This document shows, piece after piece, positions 33,576 to 37,342 of a stretch of 46,388 bases of DNA. How positions within the stretch are numbered: the first letter of the stretch is position 1; each line of letters opens with the position of its first letter. This DNA comes from Alphaproteobacteria bacterium. GTDB taxonomy: Bacteria; Pseudomonadota; Alphaproteobacteria; HIMB59. The notes beneath the pieces are model-generated. The model had not been told where the DNA came from. It made no database searches and saw nothing but the letters and a program-made list of their open reading frames with translations. Location: the NCBI GenBank assembly GCA_029246865.1, contig JAQWMI010000022.1, forward strand, positions 1 through 46,388, in the 5' to 3' direction. The translations under genes were made by a program, and so were the position numbers.

Positions 33576-34691
33576 ATGGCTAATAAAAAACCAATGAAGA
33601 GAAGAGGTTTTCTTAAAGCTGCTGGCGCAACCGTTGCGGCGGCTGCTGCTGTATCTTCTTTTCCAGCTCCTGCAATTTCAGAGGGTCACAAAGAATGGAT
33701 AGCTTGTTCTGCTTTTGGCAAAACTGGTATACTAGGTGACGCCCTTTCACAATTTGCAGCTTTTGTAAATTCACAATCTAGTAAAGTAAAAATTAAAGTT
33801 TATTTTTCTGGAGAACTAGTCCCAGGTTTGGAATCATTAGATGCAGTAAGATCTGGTGCAGCACAAATGGCATACGGAGCTCCTTATTACTGGACAAATA
33901 TTAGTAATGCAACCTCACTTGTTGCTGCTATGCCTTTTGGTTTAACTGCCCAAGAACAAAATGCTTGGTGTTACTATGGAGGTGGTATTGAAGCCGCTGA
34001 CGTCGTTTATAATGAATTAGGTGTCAAGTTTTTACCATTAGGTAATACAGGTAATCAGATGGGCGGATGGTACAATAAAGAAATTAACTCCGTTGAAGAT
34101 TTCCAGGGCCTTAAGTTCAGAATGCCAGGAATTGGCGGTAAGGTATTAGAAAAACTTGGTGCTTCAGTAATACTTCTAGCTGGTGGTGATGTTCTTCCCG
34201 CTCTTGCCTCAGGAGCAATCGATGGAACTGAATGGATTGGACCTGCAGCAGATTTAGGTAAAGGTCTGCATCAGGCAGCAAAATATTATTACAACCCTGG
34301 TTGGCATGAGCCTGCAACTATTCTTGATTGCTCCATTGACTTAAAAGAATGGGAGTCTCTTGATGATGATACCCGAAGTCTTATTACGCAAGCTTCAAAG
34401 GCAACAAATATGGAAGTACTCTCTAGATTTCAAGCAGCTAACGATGGCGCGTATCAGAAGTTGATTAATGAACACGGTGTTCAAATGAGACAAATTCCTG
34501 ATGAAGTAATGAATAAGATTGGAGAGACTGCAGCAGAAGTTCTAACAGAATATGCTGCTCAAGACTCACAATCACAAGCTTTATTTTCTCATCTTGCGAA
34601 GTTTAGATCAACGGTTATTAGATGGACAGGTGTCTCTGAGAAAGAATACTTAAGGATCAGAAATCTTCCTTTTAAATTTCCAAACGCATAA
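33576..34691 (+). CDS. TRAP transporter substrate-binding protein (DctP family), TAT signal
   Basis: KRRGFLKAAGATVAAAAAVSS TAT leader; QMGGWYNKEINSVEDFQGLKFRMPGIGGKVLEKLGAS; ALASGAIDGTEWIGP. Confidence 0.95.
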   Translation: MANKKPMKRRGFLKAAGATVAAAAAVSSFPAPAISEGHKEWIACSAFGKTGILGDALSQFAAFVNSQSSKVKIKVYFSGELVPGLESLDAVRSGAAQMAYGAPYYWTNISNATSLVAAMPFGLTAQEQNAWCYYGGGIEAADVVYNELGVKFLPLGNTGNQMGGWYNKEINSVEDFQGLKFRMPGIGGKVLEKLGASVILLAGGDVLPALASGAIDGTEWIGPAADLGKGLHQAAKYYYNPGWHEPATILDCSIDLKEWESLDDDTRSLITQASKATNMEVLSRFQAANDGAYQKLINEHGVQMRQIPDEVMNKIGETAAEVLTEYAAQDSQSQALFSHLAKFRSTVIRWTGVSEKEYLRIRNLPFKFPNA

Positions 34692-34699
34692 TAATTAAT

Positions 34700-34728
34700 A
34701 AAGGCCCTCTGCTATAAGGGGGCCTTTT
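34700..34728. terminator. Bidirectional hairpin between convergent TRAP genes
   Basis: AAAGGCCC...GGGCCTTTT. Confidence 0.75.
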
Positions 34729-36100
34729 AAAAAATTTTACGAGGTAGCCATGTCGCTATTTCAGGAATAAACCCTACAACAATAATAGCAATTACCTGAA
34801 TTCCAATATAGGGAATTACTCCTCGGTAGATATTTTTTGTTTGTATTTCAGGTGGGGCTACGCCTCTGAGAAAGAAGAGTGAAAAACCAAAGGGGGGAGT
34901 TAAAAAACTCGTTTGTAAATTTAATGAGATCATTATACCCAGCCACAGAGGGTCGGCTCCATTTGCAATAAGAACTGGACCAACCAAAGGCACAATTACA
35001 AAAATAATTTCAATGTAATCAAGAAAAAATCCAAGAACAAAAATTGCTAGCATTACAATTATTAGTGCCCCAACTTGCCCACCAGGAAGGCCTCCTAATG
35101 CATGTTCAATTAGTTCATCGCCATTAAAACCTCTAAAGACTAGAGAGAACATTGAAGCGCCAATTAAAATTACAAATACGAAGGAGCTTAATTTGACCGT
35201 GCTAAAAGAAACATCCTTTAAATTTTTAAATGTCAATTCACCTTTAGCAAAAGCCAATAATGAGGCACCGGCTGCTCCAACTGAGGCAGACTCAGTGGGC
35301 GTAGCGATACCTAGTAGGATGGAACCAAGCACTAATAAAATTAAAATTAATGGAGGAAGAACATTTTTAAATGCTTCAATGTAGATTTCTAATCGTGATC
35401 GCGTTGTTTCTATAGGCGGGCAAGATAGTGGATAAATTTTTGCATAAATATAAATAAATAAAATAAACATACAAACCAACATCATGCCTGGCATCATCGC
35501 ACCAGCAAACAAATCAATTGCAGTTATTGGTTCAGGTGCAAGATTACCAGAAATTAATGCCGCTTCTTCATTTGCTCCCTGAAGGATATCTGCTAGCAAG
35601 ACTAGAACTATAGAGGGTGGAATAATTTGCCCTAATGTTCCCGCAGCACAAATTGTTCCTGTAGCAATTTTTTGGTCGTAGCCTGCTTTAAGCATTGTAG
35701 GTAATGAGAGCATACCCATCGTAACGACTGTTGCTCCAACAATTCCTGTTGATGCCGCTAGAAGCATACCTACAATAACAACACCTATTCCAAGACCACC
35801 TTTGGTGGTGCCAAATAATTCTCCAATAGATTGAAGTAGTCCAGCTGCAATTTTGGTTTTCTCAAGCATAATGCCCATAAAAATAAATAGTGGCACTGCA
35901 ACAAGAGGTTCATTAATCATCACACCGAAAATTCTTTGAGGAAAAAATCCCATCATTCTAAAATTAAAAATATCTAAGTAGTCTCCTAAAAATCCAAAAA
36001 ATAAAGCTGATCCTGCTAATGTGAATGCCACAGGAAATCCAAATAACAAAAGTGTTAAGGTTGTAAAAAACATGATCATAGAAAGAATTTCTGGGGTCAT
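34727..36100 (-). CDS. TRAP transporter large permease (DctM)
   Basis: FGFPVAFTLAGSALFFG, PLFIFMGIMLEKT, GIVGATVVTMGMLSLPTML, CAAGTLGQIIPPSIVLVLLAD, LQTSFLTPPFGFSLFFLRGVAP. Confidence 0.96.
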   Translation of the reverse strand: MTPEILSMIMFFTTLTLLLFGFPVAFTLAGSALFFGFLGDYLDIFNFRMMGFFPQRIFGVMINEPLVAVPLFIFMGIMLEKTKIAAGLLQSIGELFGTTKGGLGIGVVIVGMLLAASTGIVGATVVTMGMLSLPTMLKAGYDQKIATGTICAAGTLGQIIPPSIVLVLLADILQGANEEAALISGNLAPEPITAIDLFAGAMMPGMMLVCMFILFIYIYAKIYPLSCPPIETTRSRLEIYIEAFKNVLPPLILILLVLGSILLGIATPTESASVGAAGASLLAFAKGELTFKNLKDVSFSTVKLSSFVFVILIGASMFSLVFRGFNGDELIEHALGGLPGGQVGALIIVMLAIFVLGFFLDYIEIIFVIVPLVGPVLIANGADPLWLGIMISLNLQTSFLTPPFGFSLFFLRGVAPPEIQTKNIYRGVIPYIGIQVIAIIVVGFIPEIATWLPRKIF

Positions 36101-36612
36101 GAGCTTTCCTTAGATGTTAGATGGATGATACTTTTAATAATATTTGAGAGAGCTTGTATGAAAAGAAGAATACAAAAAATTAAAATTGCACTTTTTAAAA
36201 TATACAAAGCAGGCAATCCTCCAACTTCCCGAGAAACTTCATTCATTGACCATGATCTAGCAATAAAAGGAAAACTAAATTTCCAAATCACAAATATGAA
36301 TGGTATGAGTAAAAAAAGATTTCCAAGAATATCGACAATGGATTTATATTTAACTGATGCTCCTCGATAAAAAACATCTATTCTCACATGTTCGTTGCTT
36401 AGGTAGGTATACCCGCTACCCATCATAAATATATATGCATGCAGCCAGACGTAAGCTTCTTGCATCCATATAAAGCTTATTGAAAAACCATATCGAAGCA
36501 CGACAACACCTAGAACAACAAGAACCATGGATGCTGCAAAAAAGGCACAGATACTTCCTGTAATTTTATTGATCAAATCAAAGAAAGAAGAAATAGACTT
36601 TAATATATTCAT
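36097..36612 (-). CDS. TRAP transporter small permease (DctQ)
   Basis: Four-TM protein overlapping dctM; WMQEAYVWLHAYIFMMGSGYTYLSNEHVRIDVFY. Confidence 0.93.
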   Translation of the reverse strand: MNILKSISSFFDLINKITGSICAFFAASMVLVVLGVVVLRYGFSISFIWMQEAYVWLHAYIFMMGSGYTYLSNEHVRIDVFYRGASVKYKSIVDILGNLFLLIPFIFVIWKFSFPFIARSWSMNEVSREVGGLPALYILKSAILIFCILLFIQALSNIIKSIIHLTSKESS

Positions 36613-36664
36613 AACAAAAAAGTCATATTATACAGTATGTGAACTACAGCAAATCAATAAAAAT

Positions 36665-36799
36665 TAGGTCGTGGTGCCCACTTTACTTTCGTAAAGCAGT
36701 GCCTCATGCGGGGTGAGATAGGCACCCCTAAATACATAAATAGTAAGGTTGCACTTATTATTTTGGTACTAATACCTTTGTATTTAGGTTTGCGACCTA
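36665..36799 (+). ncRNA. Candidate structured RNA / sdh-operon leader element (novel candidate; orientation inferred)
   Basis: Closing stem TAGGTCG(36665-36671)/CGACCTA(36793-36799), CTTTAC-TTTC-GTAAAG, GGGGTG/CACCCC, CCTAAATACA/TGTATTTAGG, AATAGTAAG/CTTATTATT, GGTA/TACC, all inside a non-coding gap. Confidence 0.5.
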
Positions 36800-36893
36800 G
36801 TTATTAGATTTATCAATTAATTGAATGTATTTTAAGTAAATAAAATCAACTATTTTAAAGATATAAACAAGTTACTCACAGTTGGTTATTTAT

Positions 36894-36930
36894 AACTATC
36901 TTGCATATATTCATTAATAGATAGTTTTTT
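36894..36930 (+). terminator. U-tailed hairpin upstream of sdhC
   Basis: AACTATCT...AGATAGTT followed by TTTT (6-T run overall); low-GC 8-bp stem. Confidence 0.45.
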
Positions 36931-36964
36931 ACTATAAAATCATTGATCTATATATTCTTATTAA

Positions 36965-37342
36965 ATGACAAAAATGAACAGACCACTATCCCCTCACTTA
37001 CAAATTCATAAACCCTTACTTACAATGGTTTTTTCTATTACCCATAGAATTTCAGCTATAGTTTTCTTTGTATCTTTAATTCCAATAGGACTATGGATTA
37101 GTTCAATCTATTTAAATGAAGGTATATTCAATCTCATAAATATTGTTCTGAATTCTTCTGCTGTTAAGATTTTGATCCTATTGTGGTTAGCTTTCGTAAA
37201 TCATTTTATATTGAATGAGATTAAACATCTAATATGGAGCCAAGTTAAAGTAATGGAACTTAATCAGGTTTATCCTTTTTCTTATATGATTTTATCTTTA
37301 AATTTTTTTATTGTTTGTTTAGTTGGGGTAAAAATAATTTAA
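36965..37342 (+). CDS. sdhC: Succinate dehydrogenase cytochrome b556 subunit
   Basis: NRPLSPHLQIHKPLLTMVFSITHRISAI and three TM; upstream of sdhD/A/B. Confidence 0.96.
   Translation: MTKMNRPLSPHLQIHKPLLTMVFSITHRISAIVFFVSLIPIGLWISSIYLNEGIFNLINIVLNSSAVKILILLWLAFVNHFILNEIKHLIWSQVKVMELNQVYPFSYMILSLNFFIVCLVGVKII

Follow-up and report, generated by a model that had tools for sequence, protein, structure and literature searches.

A genus-wide structured RNA between dctQ and sdhC in HIMB59-like Alphaproteobacteria, a candidate stand-alone small RNA

Streamlined bacteria of the SAR11 type are thought to be poor in transcription factors and reliant on RNA-level control, and few of their RNAs have been described. 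Among the Alphaproteobacteria, a precedent for one small RNA (sRNA) acting on others comes from Caulobacter crescentus, in which CrfA is a sponge of the α-r8 sRNAs SisA–D, and in which pairing between CrfA and SisA depends on Hfq (PMC12559287). Here we describe RNA1, which, on comparative sequence evidence, is a structured RNA found throughout a HIMB59-like genus (SAR11 clade V) and absent from Rfam.

The window (the whole 46,388-nt stretch of DNA analysed, contig C22) belongs to a genome of 1.29 Mb; the same genus includes a single-contig genome, G029, that we take to be HIMB59 (SAR11 clade V). RNA1 lies in the 352-bp gap between two divergent genes: dctQ, encoding the small permease of a TRAP transporter (36097–36612, minus strand; Pfam PF04290), and sdhC, which opens sdhCDAB–mdh–sucAB (36965–37342, plus strand; assigned from PF01127 and the genes downstream). 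It occupies this position at every locus checked. On the 3′ side of dctQ is dctM (34727–36100, minus strand; PF06808). The neighbouring dctP, with a Tat-like signal (33576–34691, plus strand), is convergent with dctQM (34727–36612, minus strand) instead of being part of one shared operon.

Read on the minus strand, RNA1 extends from a 5′ end at 36799 to a 3′ end at 36665, with its parts in the order 5′-P1-P3-P2(P2b,P2a)-P1′. The closing stem P1 joins GGUCG (36797–36793) to CGACC (36671–36667), and reads GGUUA/UAACC in relative L060. The P3 arm, CCUAAAUAC.../...GUAUUUAGG (36727–36788), is long in the window clade and a short hairpin in the rest of the genus. P2, formed by GGUGCC (36726–36721) and GGCACC (36678–36673), covaries, with pairs appearing as U-A, C-G or U-G, as G-C or A-U, and as C-G or U-G. 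It encloses two hairpins, P2b (CUCA-CCCCGCA-UGAG, 36703–36717) and P2a (CUUUAC/GUAAAG, 36681–36696), the latter with pair changes. P2b carries a single change among 30 sequences, with the pair retained on the minus strand, and its near-invariant C-rich loop is our proposed pairing seed.

The pairings listed in a preliminary description of this gap, which had taken the element for a leader of the sdhC operon, can all be found in the sequence, none of them more than a base or two from the place given there: TAGGTCG/CGACCTA (36665–36671/36793–36799), CTTTAC/GTAAAG (36681–36686/36691–36696), GGGGTG-N7-CACCCC (starting at 36710), CCTAAATACA/TGTATTTAGG (36727–36736/36779–36788), the AATAGTAAG/CTTATTATT hairpin, GGTGCC with GGCACC (36673–36678 with 36721–36726) and, closer to sdhC, AACTATC/GATAGTT (36894–36900/36920–36926). 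Its two broader claims about the element, that it is a structured RNA and that it lies outside known families, are borne out by what follows; its assignment to sdhC is not.

A structured RNA conserved at this locus is strongly supported. First, the predicted fold is more stable than chance on both strands: the minus-strand fold (137 nt) has an energy of −45.4 kcal/mol and a z score of −5.45, matched by none of 200 shuffles, and the plus-strand fold (331 nt) has a z score of −4.22. The fold recurs in relatives, most of which have z scores of −3 to −6 (weakest in L063, −2.0).

Second, the element is a single-copy feature of the genus. BLAST matched it in most genus relatives, and covariance model R1 detected exactly one copy per genome in 42 of 52 genus genomes, with none in the 98 sister-family genomes of the same draw; in G029, the stretch from P1 to P1′ corresponds to 246,527–246,623 of contig C1. 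When five of the genus genomes without a match were checked, four also had no match to sdhA, and in the fifth the contig stops inside sdhC. Across 385 genomes of the class, R2 matched genus members only; applied with permissive filters to 38 sister-family genomes, it gave nothing below E 0.3. When Rfam 15 was scanned, no family reached the gathering threshold for the element, and no credible match appeared up to E 5 for the window copy or E 3 for relatives.

Third, P1, P2, P2a and P3 all retain compensatory pair changes. Among 25 distinct sequences, 7 pairs changed on both sides and 16 cells carried such changes, compared with 3.8 pairs and 4.8 cells in a shuffling control that reached these values in 13 of 500 and 0 of 500 cases, respectively. 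Cells were 88.9% paired in the register used and no more than 51% paired once the partners had been slid. As the alignment depends on structure, we read these figures as support and not as proof. Both conserved structure and compensatory change, as looked for in a stand-alone sRNA, were found.

The pattern of wobble pairs places the RNA on the strand opposite sdhC. In a fixed register set by hand (20 pairs in 30 sequences, 600 pair cells), 15 cells are G·U on the minus strand and 2 are A·C, which would be G·U on the plus strand; by our own tally these represent about 11 and 2 separate changes, respectively, in sequences that are related by descent, so that the counts carry no formal probability. 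RNAalifold run on both strands did not separate them, nor did mean single-sequence energy. The other discriminator is the spacing of a −10-like box: TAnnAT stands exactly 7 nt 5′ of the P1 GG on the minus strand in most relatives, and no comparably constant box was seen on the plus strand among the sequences listed. The corresponding putative extended −10 of the window copy, TTGATAAATC (36807–36816, minus strand), is slightly shifted, as it is in its clade, and the predicted promoter has no clear −35. From these two discriminators, we consider RNA1 very likely to be encoded on the minus strand.

On balance, we think it fairly probable, judging from sequence comparison, that RNA1 is a stand-alone minus-strand sRNA gene. 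A separate RNA of 86–135 nt would be made, independently of dctQ and sdhC, from a promoter of its own at the TAnnAT box 7 nt upstream of P1. It may then act in trans, and here we are less confident, by base pairing through the invariant loop CCCCGCA, with a second element, RNA2, as its best candidate partner.

The candidate partner, RNA2, is an sRNA-like, almost invariant element located where ogt ends (3′ end; contig C2, 6479–6548, in the window's own genome; locus L188, 330–399; plus strand). Of the 52 genus genomes, 42 carry it; a search of the sister family did not detect it (best E 0.25), and 19 of the copies listed are identical to the query over 105 bp. A conserved TTTGAC box lies upstream. 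Read on the strand bearing UGCGGGG, its 10-bp stem includes a U-G pair that does not vary, and its CU-rich loop holds the anti-Shine–Dalgarno sequence UUUCCUCCUCU. The core resembles the 5′ end of tmRNA (GGGGGCUGAUUC), but neither ARAGORN nor Rfam places a tmRNA there; R3 matches outside the genus look like chance, and no Rfam family overlies them.

RNA2 emerged from the distribution of TGCGGGG, which is complementary to the invariant loop. This heptamer is not enriched in five genomes and is no commoner than its reverse, and besides RNA1 itself, the one site that recurs in all five is intergenic and lies in RNA2. The RNA1 core, CCGAAUC-UCA-CCCCGCAUGA, has its complement there in UUCAUGCGGGG-GCU-GAUUCGG. 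The predicted duplex between the core and RNA2 has an energy of −32 to −38 kcal/mol in each of 12 genomes and, with RNA1's own complement excepted, is the best at any TGCGGGG site in three genomes. In a target screen limited to a 200-kb sample of HIMB59, RNA2 ranked first of 19,960 windows, the RNA1 locus itself aside. The altered core of G094 (GGGUC) still pairs through G·U. If the two RNAs do pair, RNA1 would open the RNA2 stem that presents the UUUCCUCCUCU loop and would serve, from its place between the dctQM and sdh operons, as an anti-sRNA or sponge.

The same loop complement did not yield mRNA targets: TGCGGGG is unenriched. The ribosome-binding region of ftsZ contains it in two of the genomes inspected. 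In HIMB59 (G029) and in G018, UUGCGGGGA at the ribosome-binding position of ftsZ is complementary to the RNA1 loop (L085 and L098, near position 1500, minus strand), and it is absent from the inspected sites of other genomes.

Other observations sit less easily with pairing. The gain from cofolding RNA1 with RNA2 falls mostly inside the range of shuffled controls, because both RNAs must unfold, and RNA2 varies too little for covariation between the two to be informative. The window clade has lost the GAAUC half of the match, and L065–L067 have a weakened form of it. Such a loss, and the invariance of RNA2, would be unexpected were selection acting on the entire duplex, and they favour a different reading of the minus-strand sRNA, in which the shared UCAUGCGGGG...GAUUCGG is a DNA-binding site, the trace of an inverted duplication or a coincidence, and RNA1 has another mode of action, for instance via a protein or mRNAs. 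Against this, both match sites fall inside predicted transcripts, with part of each in loops; 10 + 7 matching letters are improbable as a coincidence in a genome of 31% G+C; and RNA2 comes first in the scans. We hold pairing with RNA2 to be a tentative proposal, and the reading without such pairing to be possible to a similarly limited degree.

RNA1 might also be a cis-acting 5′ leader of dctQM on the minus strand, riboswitch-like or protein-binding, that controls the TRAP transporter. Transcription from the box before P1 would then continue to dctQ, 50–62 nt beyond. RNA1 does share the strand of dctQ and lies at this short, constant distance upstream, and its compact closed architecture with invariant nucleotides recalls an aptamer. 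No strong intrinsic terminator follows P1, where the sequence is U-rich in some clades and U-poor in others, so read-through into dctQ is possible. However, a TATAAT/TATACT box between RNA1 and dctQ is kept genus-wide, about 9 nt from the ATG in most clades (TGTATAAT, 36627–36634, minus strand, as the putative dctQ −10 of the window), so that transcription of dctQ probably starts separately, with almost no leader. In genes sampled from HIMB59 and the window, −10-like boxes are weakly in excess 12 nt ahead of start codons, which suits mRNAs with very short leaders. Further, the interval between P1 and dctQ showed neither conserved structure nor an anti-P1 sequence, and the invariant part of RNA1 is an exposed hairpin loop. 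We consider a dctQM leader unlikely.

Far less probable still is a plus-strand sdhC leader, the riboswitch or attenuator of the preliminary description, ending in a terminator at 36894–36930. The element is indeed upstream of sdhC on the plus strand, the window copy taken alone folds slightly better on that strand (−49.8 kcal/mol compared with about −45 on the minus strand) and some pairs of the window clade are G·U there. Across the genus, however, the wobble count (2 against 15) favours the opposite strand, and sdhC has promoter-like boxes of its own downstream of the element, conserved within 40 nt of its ATG: TTTACT-N16/17-TATATT is retained near the start codon in 18 aligned relatives (with TATACT in L006) and appears in the window as a putative promoter at 36928–36956 on the plus strand (TTTACT, 36928–36933; TATATT, 36951–36956, 8 nt before the ATG). 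Judged from these boxes, transcription of sdhC would start downstream of 36930, which the preliminary description itself had named as an outcome that would overturn its reading.

Nor is there a conserved expression platform. The alternative pairing behind the proposed bistability exists in the window sequence but extends to at least 5 bp in just 6 of the 25 relatives in the alignment, and the U-tailed hairpin, also present in the window, has its stem broken already in the close relative L005 and beyond. Because neither is conserved, the alternative GGGGTG/CACCCC pairing and the U-tailed hairpin are probably non-functional. The U run of the supposed terminator sits within an imperfect palindrome, ATAGTTTTTTACTAT (36921–36935, plus strand), that overlaps the sdhC −35 and is recognizable in 18 of 18 aligned relatives.

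Other candidates found no support: the branched fold differs from the long hairpin with a central bubble of 6S RNA (RF00013, a model that may miss divergent 6S RNAs, gave no match in 6 of the order's genomes, although positive controls did match), a single copy per genome does not suit a mobile repeat or MITE, the core is absent from the viral contigs searched, frames that end at different places and invariant third positions speak against a coding peptide in RNA1, and the RISPRM reading common to RNA1 and RNA2 does not survive the indels that separate clades.

Since RNA1, dctQ and sdhC each have their own boxes, the simplest reading of the sequence is that they may form three separate transcription units. 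Two further features of the gap may concern regulation. About 100 bp before sdhC are strongly conserved genus-wide (36830–36960, plus strand; TTTTTCCACA...GCATGAATTAATAAAATAATAG in relatives); regulators of the TCA operon probably act there. Separately, a palindrome-like TTTTGANTCAAAA box lies about 30–50 nt upstream of the RNA1 start on the minus strand in the deep clade L057–L063; it is found in several deep-branching relatives and is unrecognizable in shallow clades, and an activator might bind there.

If the proposed pairing with RNA2 is correct, a 7-nt loop of RNA1 binds the 5′ part of an ultra-conserved anti-Shine–Dalgarno sRNA. A search for Hfq (PF17209) gave no match in five genus genomes (G000, G017, G018, G028 and G029), with positive controls. 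It is conceivable, though on present evidence rather doubtful, that RNA1 and RNA2 constitute an Hfq-independent sRNA/anti-sRNA pair that, in a streamlined ocean bacterium, ties the translation of RNA2 targets to respiration or carbon uptake. The genus offers a cultured member (HIMB59), a named second RNA as candidate partner and no detectable Hfq. The locus also illustrates that counting wobbles pair by pair can reassign what looks like an operon leader to a gene on the opposite strand.

Comparison with described systems places RNA1 near, and outside, several of them. Candidate RNAs of ‘Candidatus Pelagibacter ubique’ (PMC2704228) are likewise structured and intergenic in streamlined SAR11-type genomes; the main text of that report mentions neither sdhC, succinate, TRAP nor dct, and RNA1 was not found in the sister family of the same order. 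The α-r sRNAs (ar15/AbcR and ar8/Sis) resemble RNA1 in being intergenic and short, with an apparent promoter of their own and a conserved C-rich single-stranded element, and resemble RNA2 in carrying UUUCCUCC in the loop of a GCUGA/UCAGC stem. RNA1 matches no α-r family in Rfam, whereas RNA2 reaches 20.1 bits against ar15 (RF02345), below the gathering score of 40 and the only Rfam match worth noting for it. CrfA differs in using a G/A-rich loop that pairs with a UUUCCUCCCU core with the help of Hfq (PMC12559287); RNA1, compared here with the published description of CrfA, would instead present a C-rich loop to a different part of its partner. As in our proposal, however, a stem-loop of CrfA pairs with an sRNA carrying UUUCCUCC, in a system tied to carbon supply.
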